From the NCBI GenBank assembly GCA_029252405.1, contig JAQXBM010000087.1:52736-116735 (forward strand): a stretch of 64,000 bases of DNA, given 5' to 3'. Position numbers and translations under genes: made by a program. The notes under the pieces were generated by a model. The model saw only the letters and a list, made by a program, of their open reading frames with translations. It was not told the DNA's origin and did no database searches. Source of the stretch: Crocinitomicaceae bacterium. Lineage in GTDB: Bacteria; Bacteroidota; Bacteroidia; Flavobacteriales_D; Crocinitomicaceae. Numbering within the stretch: position 1 is the stretch's first letter; each line of letters begins with the position of its first letter. Below, piece by piece: positions 42,634 to 60,018 of the stretch.

Positions 42634-43824
42634 TTACTTGATTACGTCAAGTTCTTTTCCAACTTTGATGAATGCTGCAATCGCTTTGTCCAAATCTGCT
42701 TTGGTGTGTGCTGCTGAGATCTGAGTACGAATTCGAGCCGCTCCTTTTCCAACTACTGGATAGAAGAAACCAATCGCGTAAACACCCTCGCGGAGCAATA
42801 AATCGGCAAATTTTTGAGATAACGCGGCATCGTACAACATGATCGGAACGATTGGCGAGTTACCAGGCTTGATGTCGAATCCAGCGGCGATAATTGCATC
42901 CTTGAAGTACTTCGTGTTTTCTTCTAAACGATCGCGCAATTCCGTCGACTGACTCAAAATATCGAATACTTTGTTCGCTGCTCCAACAATTGACGGCGCC
43001 AAAGAGTTTGAGAATAAGTATGGTCGCGATTTCTGACGCAACATATCGATGATTTCTTTTTTACCAGTTGTGTATCCACCCATGGCACCACCAAGTGCTT
43101 TCCCTAGTGTTCCTGTGATGATATCGACTTTGTCTGAAACGCCACAGAATTCAGGAACTCCACGCCCAGTTTTACCAATGAAGCCAGCTGAGTGACATTC
43201 GTCTGTCATCACAAGTGCATCGTATTTATCGGCAAGAGCACAAATTTCATCCATTTTGGCGATGTCACCATCCATAGAGAAAACACCATCTGTAACGATA
43301 ATGCGGAAGCGTTGATCTTGAGCAGCTTTCAACTGTTCTTCCAAATCAGCCATGTCTGAGTGCTTATAACGGTAACGTTGCGCTTTACACAAACGAACTC
43401 CATCAATGATCGAAGCGTGATTCAATTCATCTGAAATAATCGCATCTTCTTTACCGAGAAGTGGTTCAAAAAGGCCACCATTCGCATCAAAGGCAGCAGC
43501 GTACAAAATAGTGTCTTCCGTTCCGTAGAACTTCGCAATTTTCGCTTCCAATTCCTTGTGAATATCCTGTGTTCCACAAATGAAACGTACCGATGACATT
43601 CCAAAACCGTGTGTATCAAGCGTATCTTTTGCTGCTTGAATTACATCAGGATGAGAAGATAATCCCAAGTAGTTATTTGCACACATGATGACAACATCTT
43701 CACCCGTACTAACGTGCACATTTGCTCCTTGTGGAGAGGTGATAATACGCTCGCGCTTATATAATCCTGCTTCGTCAATTTCCTTCAGCTCTGACTGAAG
43801 ATGGTCTTTCATTTTTCCGTACAT
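42634..43824 (-). CDS. kbl: Glycine C-acetyltransferase (2-amino-3-ketobutyrate CoA ligase)
   Basis: 396 residues from the ATG at 43824, the normal Kbl length. The 60-codon extension in the track overlaps the downstream end of the CotH gene and lies upstream of the promoter. It is a PLP-dependent alpha-oxoamine synthase joining glycine and acetyl-CoA in threonine breakdown. Marks are [58 protein letters not shown] and the Schiff-base Lys in [15 protein letters not shown]. The usual partner threonine dehydrogenase (tdh) is not in the window. First gene of the kbl-GNAT operon. Confidence 0.95.
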
Positions 43825-43846
43825 AACTACCCAATTTTGGTTAGCC

Positions 43847-43854
43847 CAAAAATA
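43847..43854 (-). promoter_or_regulatory. -7 promoter box TATTTTTG of kbl
   Basis: An exact TAnnTTTG on the minus strand that ends 22 bases before the kbl ATG. It is the same octamer, at almost the same distance, as the box at 16040. Confidence 0.55.
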
Positions 43855-43865
43855 GAAAGAAATTC

Positions 43866-46121
43866 TTACTTCAACAGGAGTTTCGCCGTACGAACAATGT
43901 CGCCTTTCTGAACATGAATAATGTACAGTCCGCTTGGGAGATCCGCCACTCGAAGATGCTGTGTCATGTAGTTGACTGGCTCCCGATTGATGAGAGTTCC
44001 CCACGCGTTGTATATGCTCACAGTTCCTTCGATCAATTCTATATTATTCAATTGTAAATAACTTTGATCATCCGCAGGATTCGGGTAGACTGAAATCCCA
44101 GATGTACCTCCCATTGGGCAGCTCAAACTTTCAAAATCTTCGAAGGTGAAGTTGCTCTTCAAAAATGAACGGATATACGCGGGACGTTCCTCAAAGAAGT
44201 ATTCCAAATAAGCACACGATTCATTCCAGTTGTTCATGGAGTTAGGGTAATTCCAGCGCGACACGTGACGGGGCAATTCCGGGGCATACTTTTCTTTAAA
44301 ATATAAGATGAATGCTCTCATTAAATCCGGATGAAACGTAGTCAACAAATTCTGCTGATAGCGACAAATGAAATCATTTTTGAAAGATTGATTCAGTAAA
44401 AGGTTTTTAAAAAGAAAGGATTGATCATTGAAAATGGTATCCAATCGTTCGATGGGGTCATGATGGATAATACCAACTGTCGCATCGAGATCGTAGAGGA
44501 GAAAACGCCATTTTGCGCTGTCTGTTTGTGCGCGCCACAAACGCATATTATTTCCTGGCCAATCCATATTGCCGAAATAGGTTTCCAGAATGTAATAGTC
44601 AATGAAATTATCGACGTCGATTTCTTCTTCAACGTGCGCATAATTATCGGGAATGGATAAATCATTTTGTTCAACGAAATCAAGTAGGTCGATAAAATCC
44701 GATGCGCTGCCTGTATTCGCAGTTAAATAACCATCTATAATGTCGACGCTGTCCTTGTCAATTCCATAAAGTGAATGCAAATAGTGCTCATCTTGTCGTT
44801 CCTTGATTGTTTGAATCCCCCAATACTCGCCATTTATATAAACGATCGTCGGGTGCGCCATTTGAAGGTCGATGTCCAATTGTTTGAGATGCGCGAGTGC
44901 TTGAATTAATTCATCTTTAAATAAACTGCTACCAAACCAGATCAGTGAGGTAAAGGCAGAACGTGACACGAATCGTTTCACTTCTCGGTTTTCCCGATCG
45001 GGAAATAAGGGGTAATTGATACTGGATTTTCCGTATTCATCACGTAAATAAAAGCGCAAGGATTTTTGATTGAAGCTTCTTGATCCGTTACCAGAGATGC
45101 GCACGCCCATATTCTCTGTAAATGCTTCTTCGCCATCATTATTGAAAAGCGTCACTGAGCACGCGCGCTCCCAATCAATACCACGCTGGTAGTAGTTTCC
45201 TGACCAAAAGGGGTTGGCCGAATCATAATGAATTCCTGGAACATAGATGCCCGAGTCTTGATCAAATAGATTGAGACTGTCAATCACAATTGAAAGCACG
45301 TCGAAGGTATAATCGTGTTCTTGCGTGAAATAGCTGCGGTTGTGAACAGGACCTGTCGCGACACCGTTTCGAAATGGTTGAGCGCGAATAACTACTCCGT
45401 GTTTGACATTGCCTTCTGGCGGTGCGAAATTATTCGGAGTGGTTGGAATCAATGAAAGTTTGTTCGCGGTATTCTCAACAATATCGACAGAAGTTTCATA
45501 TAGTAAGGATTGTGTTGTGGGCAGCGAGCCATCCAGCGTGTAGTAAATACTGTCCGAACAGCTCATCTCCAAGTCAAAGGCATCCGAATAGAATCCTTGA
45601 GGGCGAGAGAACTCGATGAACTGAATGAATTCGCTGTTATTATTGGTTGATAGGGGAGTAGATTCAGTTAAGAACCCAGCATTGTCCGATCCATCAGGAA
45701 GTCTGCCGTAACTGTAATCTTTTTCAAGATCTACGGGTAAAAAATGATCAACGATGGAGCCTTGAGAATTCGAAAGAATCAAATATTCTCCTGTGGATTT
45801 TAGTCGGAAGTTGGTGTGAAGCTCACTACCAGAGTAGGATCTGTCTTTTCCAGAAAGAAATACAATCAAATAACCATTTGCCGCAATATTTACCGACGGG
45901 AACGACCATTTTTCGACATTAGAGAAGCCATCACTTAAATGGTAATTCTGAAGGTTGATGCTTGACGAAGTCGGATTGTACAATTCCACCCAGTCTGTGA
46001 AATCTCCATCTTCATCGAGAAAAGTGGTGTCGTTTGCGCTCATTAATTCGTTGATCACGAGATGCTGTGCATACAAATTGGATCCTACGATAGTGAAGAA
46101 AATGAATAGAAGTTGTTTCAT
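43866..46121 (-). CDS. Secreted lamin-tail/CotH-kinase protein with T9SS type A sorting domain (2)
   Basis: 751 residues with signal peptide ([18 protein letters not shown]). A lamin-tail domain (about 20-130) shows [40 protein letters not shown] and [16 protein letters not shown] chitobiase/hexosaminidase-C-like module (about 170-280) has [15 protein letters not shown]. The CotH kinase domain (about 280-600) has [39 protein letters not shown] and [15 protein letters not shown]. The tail ([16 protein letters not shown] ... [14 protein letters not shown]) is a T9SS sorting domain. A protein-kinase-like activity on secreted proteins is known for the family. The role here is unknown. Confidence 0.92.
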
Positions 46122-55017: not shown

Positions 55018-56514
55018 ATGAGAGGAAATTTCTCTTCAAAAGAAGGACATATTATCAAGAGTAATATTCGTGAATTCGATCCATTCGCGGCTAAAGTCCT
55101 TGCGGAATATTGCGAGCAGCTCATTCGTAAAAAACAAAATCGCTTAAACATTTCTGAATCCATTCTGCTGAAAAGCATTGAATTGGAATTTTCTGATGAG
55201 GAGCAGGTTATTGAACGTGAACTAGCCGGGGTAATTCGATCTGCAAAGCGCATTCTTGAGGACACGTCAGAATCTGAATGGTCGGAAGAACATAAGCAGT
55301 TATTTTTATTGCTCAAGAAGATTGTGTTTGTCGGATTAGAAGATGACGAAGACACGAGTGATTCAGATGTGATCAATCATATTGTTGATGGTCTCATGCG
55401 ATTGGACTATTCTCGGGATATTCCTGTTTTTCAAGTTGTGGATGAAGAGCGAAACATTTTCAACTACTTCGGGTTTATTCTCGATTCCTTGGCGCAGAAG
55501 TTCAAAGAATCGACAGTTTCTGTTAAAGCAGTTAATACCTTTTTGAACTTAACTGGGAGCCAGTCATTCGTTGTGACAAATGCAAATGGAGTAATTCGGT
55601 TTGTTAGTGAGCGCTTGGAGCGTTTTCTACAACAGTCCGCGAGCGAGTTGATCGATCAATCCATTTTCGATATTATTCCAAGTTGGAAGGGACACACGTT
55701 TACTGAAATTCTTGATCAGGACACTAATGCTGAAACGCCAATTCCATTGGGATTAGGTGATCATCATGGAGAAGCGTGCGTTCAATTGCACGAAGTTTCT
55801 CAGGATGACACTGATTTTGGTGATGAAGCTGATGAAATAAAAGAATTTGTAGTGAGTATCGATTTTGATACTTCGCATACAGATCGTGAAGAAGAAATCT
55901 ACAACAATTTGACTTCAATTGATAGTGTTATTGACGCTGTCAAATCACTGAGAAGCGGGAATGTTTCGCCAAGTGAGCACAATTATAGCCTTCAAACTTC
56001 TTTAGAAAGCTTGTACCGAATTAAGTATTCGCAACTCGATAAGTTAAATCAAGTCGATGATGTCGAAAATGAGAATATTGATCCAAAATCGATTGTAAAC
56101 AGTGTACTTTCAGAGCTGAGGTTCAATAAAGGATTTGGCGAAATTACTTTCGAGGTTGAGGATAATTTGAAAGAGCCTTTCTCTGCTGATTTCGAGACAA
56201 TATACTCGATCCTGAAGCATTTAGTTTGCAATGCTGTGAAGTACGTCAGACCCGACGTGGATTCAAACATCCGAATAGAGTTTTCTACGAACAAACGTGC
56301 GACTATTATTGAGGTAACGGATAATGGAATTGGAATTCACCAAGATGATATCGACCATATTTTCGATAGGGGATACCGCGTTTCAAAATCGACTGACGGA
56401 TATGGTTTAGGATTGTACTTTATTCAGCGTTGTTTAGCTCGATGCAAAGCTAGCATAGCTGTACAGAGTGAATTGAACGTTGGTTCGAAGTTCACAATTA
56501 CCCTTGAACAATAA
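55018..56514 (+). CDS. PAS-domain sensor histidine kinase-like protein (soluble)
   Basis: 498 residues with no signal peptide or transmembrane helix, so a cytoplasmic sensor. A long acidic helical N-terminus (about 1-175) precedes a PAS domain (about 180-260, SQSFVVTNANGVIRFVSERL; DIIPSWKGHTF). The C-terminal HATPase_c domain (about 385-498) is complete: N box HLVCNAVKYV, G1 box VTDNGIGI, F-box-like DHIFDRGYRVS and G2 box GYGLGLYFIQRCLARC. The usual H-box (HE/D-L-R-x-P-L) is not visible between PAS and ATPase, where SEHNYSLQTSLESLYRIKYS is the only candidate. No response regulator adjoins. Confidence 0.85.
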   Translation: MRGNFSSKEGHIIKSNIREFDPFAAKVLAEYCEQLIRKKQNRLNISESILLKSIELEFSDEEQVIERELAGVIRSAKRILEDTSESEWSEEHKQLFLLLKKIVFVGLEDDEDTSDSDVINHIVDGLMRLDYSRDIPVFQVVDEERNIFNYFGFILDSLAQKFKESTVSVKAVNTFLNLTGSQSFVVTNANGVIRFVSERLERFLQQSASELIDQSIFDIIPSWKGHTFTEILDQDTNAETPIPLGLGDHHGEACVQLHEVSQDDTDFGDEADEIKEFVVSIDFDTSHTDREEEIYNNLTSIDSVIDAVKSLRSGNVSPSEHNYSLQTSLESLYRIKYSQLDKLNQVDDVENENIDPKSIVNSVLSELRFNKGFGEITFEVEDNLKEPFSADFETIYSILKHLVCNAVKYVRPDVDSNIRIEFSTNKRATIIEVTDNGIGIHQDDIDHIFDRGYRVSKSTDGYGLGLYFIQRCLARCKASIAVQSELNVGSKFTITLEQ

Positions 56515-56520
56515 TCAGAA

Positions 56521-59031
56521 TTAAATAACTTTTGCGAGTTTCTTTACGCCAAAGTGCGTTTCGATTGTTTGCGCGGGTTTCTTTCTCAAGTGAGAAACGT
56601 GGATTTTACTGTTGTCGAAATTCACCATCGAACTGATAATCTTGAAATTGAAGTCGTCTTTCACCTGAACGAAAGAATAACTCTGATCTTCAATTGCTCC
56701 AAATTTTCGTTTATTCTGACCAGTGGTCAATCCAAAATTGAGCTGCGTACTTCCGCATTTGATTGCTCGAAGAACAAGCTGCCACAATAATTGGCTGTAG
56801 GTGTTATGCGATTCCACATACTGGTAATCGAGACCGGCAAACAAGAAATGATAATTAGTGGCCGTTCGGTAATTTAAGGCAAGCCCAATTGGCTGATTGG
56901 TTGAATCCGAGCGTAGCGACAAAGCCAACACCTCCCAATGCGATGAATATAGCGCCGTTCGAAATAGTTCTTTTGAACAGTCAAAAATGTTTAATTCGAA
57001 GTGCTTTTCTTTTGTGTTTAGGTAAAGTTGATATAACTCATCGACCATGTGGTCGTGGTCTGCATCTAACAGCTGAACCTTAAACTCTTCTTCGTGATTT
57101 AACGCGCGCTGTCGGACAAATCTGCGCTGGCTGCTTTTCAGAGAGGTTAAGAATTCATCTGAATTTTTAATTTCTCCCAGCGCCAGGCTATAATTGTCCA
57201 GAAGCTCCACTTTCATAAATCCTTGATCTTGCATCACTGAATGAAGCGTGTCATCTACTTGAGAAATATCCCGAAGATTGAGCACATTTGAATCATTCTC
57301 ATCGTAAATGTTCGTCAATTTCTCTAGAAAGTAGGTCAGTCCTTTTTCCCAATTTTCGACCGTTTTGTCAATATACAAGTGGTTTCCAATCGAAATTGGA
57401 CATCCCATCATGAATGTTTTGGAGCATAAATAGTAAGGGTTCTTCTTCCGTTCCTCCTCAATTTGTTCAGAGATTTGAGAGGATACCAGAGCGTCATCCT
57501 TGTTTAAGCAGGCCGTGAAATACGTCGCAAGAATGATTTTCCCTTGAGCATTGCGCAAGACGAAATAGTGGAAATCCCAGTTGTTGTGTTCTTCCTCGTT
57601 GTTCTGAAAAACGCCTTCCAGTAATTGAAGCCCATCCCAATCGTAACTTCCCTTGTCGTGCATGATTCTATTCCAGAATGGTTTAGGAATTTTTGAGATC
57701 TGCCGCTCGTGTTGCAATTGGAATTGCTGAGGGTTTTCGGGAAGAGGTATTTGTACAACCTTACTCTGAGGTTTGAAGATTGTCGATTTCCTGAAGGCTT
57801 TGTAGATGTCTTGTATCGATCGTTCTTCCTCAATTAGTGTTTCCTGAAACAACTGTCCCATAATGCTGACGAGCGTTTCAATCTGCGCCAAAGTGTGATT
57901 GCATGTAATGGTAAATCGAACTCCTGTGCACGTTGCTGAAACGGCAGGAAAAATCGCTAGGTTAATATATTGACCTGCTTCGATGAGTTTTTGAACCAAG
58001 TTGTACCCCAGTCTTGGAAGACCAACCCCAACGAAAAATATTGGTGTTCCTGCTTGTCGCTCAATGAAGGGTAAACGGTGCAATTTCAATTGTGATTCAC
58101 AGAAGGCGATTTTCTTGGCTAGATCATCTTGCAGCTCATAGATTTCTGGTGAAAGATGAATGTTCGCACAGGCGATTCCTGCCCCAAGTGCTGACATCTG
58201 TAATTGACCAGCAAAGATGAAAGGCCCTCCGCATGTACGCGCGCGTTCGGATAATTCCGGATCTGGAATTATGGCTACGGCCCCGCCCGCTGCAAATGCT
58301 TTGTTGAGGCTTGTGATGAGAACCATCCTATCGTGGAGTGGCGTTTTTTCAAGTACGTACCCAGTACCATTTGGACCGGTCCACGACATTCCGTGAGCGT
58401 CGTCAACATAGAGGTTGAGTTTCTTGTATTTGTTCAGGAGTGCATGTAGTTTTCCCATCGGAGCGGGGTCTCCGTACATGCTGTAAATCCCGTCGATCAT
58501 GTACCAAACGCGCTCATATTTCTCAGATAGCTCTAGAAATTTCGCTTCTAAGTTTTCCAAGTTGTTGTGTCGAACTACATGGAATGGAACTCCTTGGAGC
58601 TGAAGGTGTGAAACCATGAATTGAACACTGGAGTGGACCTGTTGATCCATCAAAACTACATCGCCTTCATTCACAACGATTGGCATCACAGCTACATGCG
58701 CGAGCGTTGTGGTGGTTGCCAAAATGACTGGCTTTTCGAACATTCGACCAAGTAAATGTTCCAATTCACGATAAGGAGTAGATGAAACATATGTCCTTGA
58801 AGATGGGTACTGAATCCCATATTTCTCAATGGCATTTATCGCTGCATCCTTTAATCTTTGGTCGTGCTCAAACCCCAAATAGCTGTACGATCCGAAGTTA
58901 ACATGGCGCTTTTTTCCAAATGTAATCGTGGTTTTATCGTAGAACTCATCTTCTGTATATAGCTGTCCAATGCCAATGTTTACACCTTTGGAAATGGATT
59001 CGTAAATTGTATTGATGACTTCTTTTCTCAT
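56521..59031 (-). CDS. Fused alpha-oxoamine synthase (PLP) and GNAT/FemAB-like acyltransferase
   Basis: About 836 residues from the Met at 59031 (the track adds 11). Residues 1-400 are an alpha-oxoamine synthase of the serine palmitoyltransferase/BioF/Kbl fold: FGSYSYLGFEHDQRL, SSRTYVSSTPYRELEHLL, DQQVHSSVQFMV, LYVDDAHGMSWTGPNG and the Schiff-base Lys in LITSLNKAFAAGGAVA. Residues about 440-830 form an acyltransferase-type region: SQRRFVRQRALNHEEEFKVQ, LYLNTKEKHFELNIFDCSKE, CGSTQLNFGLTTGQNKRKFG. A two-step reaction is plausible: condense an amino acid with an acyl-CoA, then N-acylate it. That would suit sphingolipid- or sulfonolipid-type products, which is inference only. The stop is six bases from the convergent histidine kinase stop. 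Confidence 0.85.
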   Translation of the reverse strand: MRKEVINTIYESISKGVNIGIGQLYTEDEFYDKTTITFGKKRHVNFGSYSYLGFEHDQRLKDAAINAIEKYGIQYPSSRTYVSSTPYRELEHLLGRMFEKPVILATTTTLAHVAVMPIVVNEGDVVLMDQQVHSSVQFMVSHLQLQGVPFHVVRHNNLENLEAKFLELSEKYERVWYMIDGIYSMYGDPAPMGKLHALLNKYKKLNLYVDDAHGMSWTGPNGTGYVLEKTPLHDRMVLITSLNKAFAAGGAVAIIPDPELSERARTCGGPFIFAGQLQMSALGAGIACANIHLSPEIYELQDDLAKKIAFCESQLKLHRLPFIERQAGTPIFFVGVGLPRLGYNLVQKLIEAGQYINLAIFPAVSATCTGVRFTITCNHTLAQIETLVSIMGQLFQETLIEEERSIQDIYKAFRKSTIFKPQSKVVQIPLPENPQQFQLQHERQISKIPKPFWNRIMHDKGSYDWDGLQLLEGVFQNNEEEHNNWDFHYFVLRNAQGKIILATYFTACLNKDDALVSSQISEQIEEERKKNPYYLCSKTFMMGCPISIGNHLYIDKTVENWEKGLTYFLEKLTNIYDENDSNVLNLRDISQVDDTLHSVMQDQGFMKVELLDNYSLALGEIKNSDEFLTSLKSSQRRFVRQRALNHEEEFKVQLLDADHDHMVDELYQLYLNTKEKHFELNIFDCSKELFRTALYSSHWEVLALSLRSDSTNQPIGLALNYRTATNYHFLFAGLDYQYVESHNTYSQLLWQLVLRAIKCGSTQLNFGLTTGQNKRKFGAIEDQSYSFVQVKDDFNFKIISSMVNFDNSKIHVSHLRKKPAQTIETHFGVKKLAKVI

Positions 59032-59234
59032 TGATAAATAGAACAATAAAATTAAACGAAGCATTCTCGATCAAACTACTCAATGCGCGCGTCATTGAAT
59101 TCCTTGAGGAATGTCTTAAGAATAGTTTGTAAAACGAGTCAATAATAAGAATATCCTTGCTAAATTTGAGAGTCTTGTGAATAACATGTACCTTCTGTTG
59201 TAAACTACTTTGGAAATCACATTATCCCGGCTTG

Positions 59235-59654
59235 ATGAAACCCACTACAGGAAAACAAATATCTTATTACGAAAATGAATTCTGTGAATATTGGATCGAT
59301 GAATTTGGTATTGTTCATGAAATTTTCAAAAACTCATTCAAAGTACTGAATCTCGAAATCGCTAAAGTAATCACTTCGGATCGCCTTGAAGTTTCCAATG
59401 GCATAGCAAGTCCTCTCTATGTTGAGTTGGGAAAAGCAACGAAAATGGACCGTGCGGCGAATCGCTATCTTTCAACAGGACCTGCGATGGAGTGTTTAAC
59501 AGGAACGGGAATTTTAGTACGCGATCAAATTGAAAAGCTGGGAGCAAATCTTTACACAGGATTTTTCAAGCCATCTGTCCCAACAAAATTCTTTACCGAC
59601 AAGGAAAAGGCGATTCTTTGGCTGCGAAACTACACTCAGGACGTTTTGAACTAG
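59235..59654 (+). CDS. Hypothetical cytoplasmic protein, possibly STAS/SpoIIAA-like
   Basis: 139 residues from the ATG at 59235 (the track counts a TTG one codon earlier). The order ENEFCEYWIDEFGIVHEIFK, SFKVLNLEIAKVITSDRLEV, PLYVELGKATKMDRAANRYL, STGPAMECLTGTGILVRDQI, FFTDKEKAILWLRNYTQDVL has the strand-helix rhythm of small STAS/SEC14-like proteins that end in a helix of the type kdKEKALeWL. The family is not confidently named. A TACTTTG box at 59206-59212 lies 22 bases before the start. Confidence 0.7.
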   Translation: MKPTTGKQISYYENEFCEYWIDEFGIVHEIFKNSFKVLNLEIAKVITSDRLEVSNGIASPLYVELGKATKMDRAANRYLSTGPAMECLTGTGILVRDQIEKLGANLYTGFFKPSVPTKFFTDKEKAILWLRNYTQDVLN

Positions 59655-59745: not shown

Positions 59746-60018
59746 ATGAAGAAACGATTTTCTATCATGGCAACTCTCGTTGTTGGACTCGGATTTACGT
59801 CTTGTTCTGTTGATGTTGATACAAGTGGATTAGATGATTTAGAAGAGCAGTTGGAAAAAACAACTGACGAAATGGAAGAAGAAATGGATAAGGCCGAAGA
59901 AGAGACAGAATCTTCTTCTTTTGATTTGTATCAATGCCCAACTGATTGTGAGAATGGACCAGCGTATCCAAATCCTGGACCTTGTAAAACGTGCGGAGAA
60001 GAAATGGTTGTGATTTAG
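59746..60018 (+). CDS. Small lipoprotein with a metal-binding-like Cys motif
   Basis: 90 residues. The lipobox FTSC (Cys at about residue 20) ends the signal peptide. An acidic helix (LDDLEEQLEKTTDEMEEEMD) is followed by YQCPTDCENGPAYPNPGPCK and TCGEEMV. The C-terminal part resembles the heavy-metal-binding motif (YTCPMHP ... CPKCGMxL) of copper/zinc proteins, with four Cys. A role in metal binding is inferred. Promoter candidate: TTG (59685-59687), 20 bases, TATCTTG (59708-59714). A terminator follows. Confidence 0.8.
   Translation: MKKRFSIMATLVVGLGFTSCSVDVDTSGLDDLEEQLEKTTDEMEEEMDKAEEETESSSFDLYQCPTDCENGPAYPNPGPCKTCGEEMVVI

Follow-up and report, generated by a model that had tools for sequence, protein, structure and literature searches.

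The closest precedent for the gene described here is BioF2 (Rv0032) of Mycobacterium tuberculosis, in which an alpha-oxoamine synthase (AOS) is joined to a domain of the N-acyltransferase superfamily. BioF2 is not a biotin enzyme, its function is unknown and among mycobacteria it is confined to the M. tuberculosis complex (PMC12910592, PMC6923341). Going by its published description, BioF2 resembles our gene in combining an AOS with an acyltransferase, but the acyltransferase domain is N-terminal in BioF2 (PMC12910592) and C-terminal in our gene (Pfam). Moreover, our gene is accompanied by a sensor module, whereas PMC12910592 and PMC6923341 mention none for BioF2.

Other described systems resemble the fusion in individual parts. 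Alb29 is an AOS that uses L-glutamate and acyl-CoAs (PMC11906848). Like the PRK07505-type AOS proteins it belongs to the same group as our AOS half, but these proteins are stand-alone enzymes of about 400 aa and the fusion forms its own clade. In the case of SulA/CapA and bacterial serine palmitoyltransferase (SPT), the AOS fold and the catalytic residues are shared, but both fall into separate clades and have no fused transferase, and the fusion lacks the SulA lysine. The two-lobe GNAT fold of the C-terminal half is also found in FemX/FemABX, MprF and CelD-type (PF13480) proteins, and an ‘xKxxxG’ motif appears to be common to this half and double-GNAT transferases in a single weak pairwise alignment; however, identity to these proteins is 13-14% and their genetic context is different. 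Lastly, in CqsA/CqsS and LqsA/LqsS an AOS gene is linked to a sensor kinase/regulator, as at the fusion loci, which differ in their PAS sensors, an extra STAS-fold protein, the fused transferase and, judged by model scores, the AOS family. No published description of this fusion was found in the open-licence literature.

With a probability of roughly 0.55, we propose that the fusion is a single-origin bifunctional synthase of an N-capped alpha-aminoketone, tied to a dedicated sensor module. In this proposal, the AOS half would condense an amino acid with a fatty-acyl group to give an alpha-aminoketone, and the FemX-like half would then acylate or aminoacylate the new amine, so that the N-capped product would come from one polypeptide. 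A C-C condensation followed by N-acylation in a single chain would be plausible; as FemX-type folds can use aminoacyl-tRNA, the capping step may also be an aminoacylation. Both reactions, their substrates and their order are inferred, next to a fusion, folds, catalytic residues and a clade that were directly observed.

The gene lies on the minus strand of the 64,000-nucleotide stretch of DNA that was analysed (the window). The minus-strand open reading frame runs from 59064 to 56521 (847 aa). Because homologues begin at the internal Met12 (‘MRKEV...’) in the alignment, the start at 59031, also chosen by an earlier sequence-only reading, is the likelier one and gives 836 aa. Residue numbers are nevertheless counted from 59064. 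The gene and its parts are:

56521..59031, minus strand: AOS-FemX-like fusion gene, 836 aa, intact and stop-free
57835..58932, minus strand: AOS domain, residues 45-410 (PF00155, NCBIfam PRK07505)
58633-58635, minus strand: His144 of the AOS domain
58402-58404, minus strand: Asp221 of the AOS domain
58300-58302, minus strand: PLP Lys255 of the AOS domain
57916-57918, minus strand: Arg383, the carboxylate arginine of the AOS domain
57730..57834, minus strand: inter-domain linker, residues 411-445, weakly conserved in the alignments
56596..57729, minus strand: FemX-like tandem-GNAT transferase domain, residues 446-823 (PF13480/PF04339, structure model, Foldseek)
56710-56712, minus strand: invariant Lys785 of the FemX-like domain

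Residues 824-847 form a low-confidence tail. That an AOS is fused here to a GNAT/FemAB-like acyltransferase, as the sequence-only reading had put it, is borne out by the Pfam domains, by the model of the C-terminal half and by recurrence across genomes. When 395 sampled Bacteroidia genomes were searched with a C-half profile, 34 (~9%) gave strong matches. Nearly all of these fall in single frames of about 800-850 aa; a few frames are shorter, and one genome (G232) has two adjacent frames instead of one. The weaker matches were stand-alone proteins of about 400 aa, from which the fused C-halves are split in the tree with an SH-aLRT of 100. Distances in the one half track those in the other (r=0.83, exceeding all 2000 permutations), and common ancestry of the genomes by itself accounts for part of this correlation. 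Altogether, sequence comparison indicates that the fusion family is of single origin with co-evolving halves. Fusion by chance or by misassembly is ruled out by the recurrence and the one origin; the loci come mostly from draft or metagenome-assembled genomes, and one carrier is a named genome, Cellulophaga sp. F20128. The genome of the window itself has another intact fusion, on contig C96 (L010/L111; 42% identity), which likewise has a PAS-kinase-like protein encoded beside it. Contig C18 of the same genome carries a relative with the AOS part only (L011), broken by one in-frame stop.

In the AOS half, PF00155 (Aminotran_1_2) spans residues 55-400 (1.2e-18). The PLP lysine, stacking histidine, Asp-x-x-His and carboxylate arginine by which the AOS superfamily is recognised are all in place. 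Each of 31 fusions examined keeps Lys255, His144, Asp221, His224 and Arg383, which include the lysine and histidine already noticed in the sequence. Among NCBIfam models, PRK07505 came first (9e-75), followed by bioF and SPT models, all under cut-off; the PRK07505 subfamily model (NF005697) was the best by far, at 251.8 bits, with its threshold of 342 missed. In the tree, a branch with support 100/99 separates the fused AOS halves from SPT, SulA, Kbl and BioF. When Alb29 was added, they grouped with PRK07505 proteins from plasmids and with Alb29 (SH-aLRT 99), whose structure (PDB 8xha) is also the best PDB match. The tree program flagged long branches (BioF, SulA), and the exact root of these trees is unsure. 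An AOS from the cyanobacterium Hydrococcus was placed beside the fusions in the first tree and, with weak support, among them in the Alb29 tree; it may be an outgroup or a fusion that lost its C-half.

This placement bears on the enzyme identities that could be considered. A duplicate of Kbl or BioF is ruled out by the separate clade and by scores under cut-off (94 against 493 bits for Kbl, 152 against 426 for bioF); a true Kbl is encoded in the window at 42634-44004 (691 bits, cut-off 493), in agreement with the previous argument that the fusion does not have the Kbl function, and the BioF gene of this genome adjoins bioB outside the window. A true serine palmitoyltransferase is not supported either: in the tree, the AOS half does not fall on the side of SPT, SulA, Kbl and BioF, and the SPT models NF047599 and NF047600 gave 136 against 500 and 132 against 640 bits. 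Thus, an SPT is ruled out by clade and cut-offs, and the phylogeny with cysteate and serine acyltransferases that had been suggested as a check put the AOS half with PRK07505/Alb29 instead. No SPT above the model cut-off was found elsewhere in this genome.

The sulfonolipid (capnine) role envisaged at first is not supported at the residue level. Lys281’ (A. finegoldii numbering) is unique to SulA (PMC9304779). This genome has a SulA/CapA orthologue as a separate gene (G000:C13 20302; L007:1348-2631) with 579 bits to PDB 28eh and 578 to 7u7h, and this paralogue retains the lysine. At the equivalent position 286, the 31 fusions show G in 23, A in 4, H in 2, T in 1 and L in 1, and K in none. On the diagnostic lysine and the separate orthologue, we reject a capnine/sulfonolipid synthase.

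A broader version, in which a serine- or cysteate-fatty acyltransferase and an N-acyltransferase would make a ceramide- or sulfonolipid-like membrane lipid, fits AOS chemistry and yet appears unlikely to us. In Caulobacter, bacterial ceramide synthesis proceeds by Spt and then bCerS, in the cytoplasm and before reduction (PMC11087976), an order that makes this kind of pairing chemically sensible and that an Spt joined directly to a CerS would suit. Furthermore, Ser89 at the selectivity position is the residue also found in SPT, SulA and BioF, and the Hydrococcus AOS, which borders the fusion clade or falls just within it, has SDR, fatty-acid hydroxylase, MGDG-synthase-like and glycosyltransferase genes around it. 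Against this stand the clade and the SPT scores given above, the separate gene for the sulfonolipid role, and neighbours that are sensors and not lipid genes. Across the fusion loci, neither a ketoreductase nor any other lipid gene was found as a conserved neighbour of the fusion, which also weighs against the aminoketone synthase that we prefer.

Regarding the C-terminal half, PF13480 (Acetyltransf_6) was recognised at residues 645-779 (33 bits, cut-off 22), and PF04339 (FemAB_like) at residues 456-803 fell just short of its cut-off (26.8 against 27 bits). An AlphaFold2 model from a 31-row alignment reached a pLDDT of 88.4 and a pTM of 0.84. With this model, the best PDB folds in Foldseek were FemX (E 1e-13, TM 0.53-0.62), followed by Sba18/Sbb17, MprF, VipF and N-myristoyltransferase; sequence searches of the half gave no matches in the PDB, nor by tblastn in plasmids. 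The half has invariant residues of its own, including Lys785; when it was aligned pairwise with a rhizobial PF13480 protein, to which it is weakly similar, this lysine fell on the ‘YK’ of that protein. The model thus supports a FemX-like double-GNAT transferase, a fold that leaves the donor, acyl-CoA or aminoacyl-tRNA, unfixed. A stand-alone relative of this half (L110:7448-8638, contig C81 of the same genome) lies near a cytochrome P450 gene and belongs to a FemAB-like family of about 400 aa that is common to many Bacteroidia.

If the donor were an aminoacyl-tRNA, as with FemX or Sba18, the product might be a short ketomethylene pseudopeptide and not a lipid. The best folds, FemX and the aminoacyl-tRNA-dependent synthases Sba18/Sbb17, point in this direction, as do Alb29, a user of L-Glu in the same clade, and an AOS-half relative on a Rhodococcus plasmid near a PGM1-type peptide ligase. 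However, N-myristoyltransferase and acetyl-CoA GNATs match the predicted fold as well, the TM-scores are at superfamily level and the model does not give donor specificity, and we regard this product as rather improbable. In the case of the proposed N-capped aminoketone, the lipid context of the Hydrococcus gene favours a lipid-like product, while the resemblance to Alb29 and FemX allows a pseudopeptide.

The surroundings of the fusion, which the sequence-only reading had passed over, add a DUF7793/PAS module as a new element. In the window it consists of:

59235..59654, plus strand: DUF7793 (PF25056) gene, 5.8e-23, divergent from the fusion; the mechanical open reading frame starts from TTG at 59232
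59032..59234, no strand: intergenic region shared by the fusion and DUF7793 genes, with presumed divergent promoters
55018..56514, plus strand: soluble PAS-HATPase sensor-kinase-like protein (HATPase 7.5e-19, weak PAS), convergent with the fusion, with 6 bp between the stops

By pattern search, the Bacteroidota promoter consensus was absent from 59032..59234 and was not enriched in the window. Beside DUF7793, at 59746-60018, a small lipoprotein-like open reading frame with a Cys-rich end is kept in the closest relatives; it had no NCBIfam match.

The model of the DUF7793 protein (pLDDT 88.9) matched SpoIIAA-like 2q3l (3e-6) and STAS anti-sigma antagonists in Foldseek, and its predicted fold is SpoIIAA/STAS-like. 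In 28 of the 31 fusion loci, DUF7793 is no more than two genes away on the divergent side; of the other three loci, one is at the start of a contig. By manual reading of the neighbourhood table, 27 of 31 loci have a PAS kinase or PAS-AraC protein as the immediate neighbour of DUF7793 or as the next gene downstream of the fusion. DUF7793, a PAS kinase and a NarL-type response regulator stand in a row at several loci (e.g. L095, L098, L100, L104, L107, L108, L109 and L124). The DUF7793 family is present in 57 of 99 sampled Bacteroidia, and carrier genomes have 1-18 copies; in five of them (G353, G046, G103, G427, G190) the neighbour of the fusion is the sole copy. At copies away from the fusion, a PAS kinase of this type was found at only 2 of 20 loci. 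In Flavobacteriaceae (L049:10400-11239, L050:10404-11246 and the equivalent in L091), the fusion is followed immediately by an RteC-like gene (PF09357, as tested in L049), and a PAS-AraC regulator takes the place of the kinase at the same loci.

A homologue of the 55018..56514 protein adjoins the fusion in the clade of the window. Pfam recognised no HisKA domain in the window protein, and the kinase domains are degenerate in neighbours of the C96 paralogue and of the L017 fusion. For these reasons, the PAS-HATPase protein may work by protein contact and not by phosphotransfer.

An arrangement of enzyme, sensor kinase and NarL-type regulator in a row is also what would be expected if the fusion made a diffusible aminoketone sensed by the adjacent PAS kinase/DUF7793, in the manner of CqsA/CqsS or LqsA/LqsS without being homologous as a system. 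PRK07505-type AOS genes of rhizobial plasmids likewise adjoin response-regulator and LuxR-type genes. This autoinducer-type function is nonetheless doubtful, as the CqsA-type autoinducer synthase model (NF005526) gave 64.8 against 428 bits, and the missing HisKA and the degenerate kinase domains speak against it.

Returning to the bifunctional synthase that we prefer, its module would comprise the STAS-fold DUF7793 and either a PAS sensor kinase with a response regulator or a PAS-AraC protein. Most likely this module switches the production of the fusion or responds to its product, a regulatory link that we infer alongside the observed neighbourhood. Only tentatively do we extend this to an undescribed signalling or regulated-metabolite system of Bacteroidota, in which DUF7793 and the PAS kinase/AraC would sense a complete N-capped aminoketone made by one polypeptide, or would time its production. 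The fusion apparently defines an enzyme family that has not been described before and that many Bacteroidia carry together with a conserved regulatory partner. Should the proposed chemistry be correct, a single gene would suffice to make a new N-capped aminoketone. The family further gives a clue to the function of DUF7793 and can be compared with the orphan BioF2 of M. tuberculosis.

Two related contexts were seen outside the fusion family. On rhizobial plasmids (L057, L058, L135, L137), a PRK07505-type AOS lies beside response-regulator and LuxR-type autoinducer-binding genes, near TraR/conjugation genes. In L058, a separate PF13480 GNAT is encoded two genes downstream of the AOS; as a homologous split system this pair was rejected, the similarity of the GNAT being weak (BLAST E 0.74), and we keep it as a lead. 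The cyanobacterial locus L051 holds a relative of the AOS half surrounded by SDR, GMC oxidoreductase, MGDG-synthase-like, fatty-acid hydroxylase and glycosyltransferase genes, a set that suggests an unexplored glycolipid pathway.
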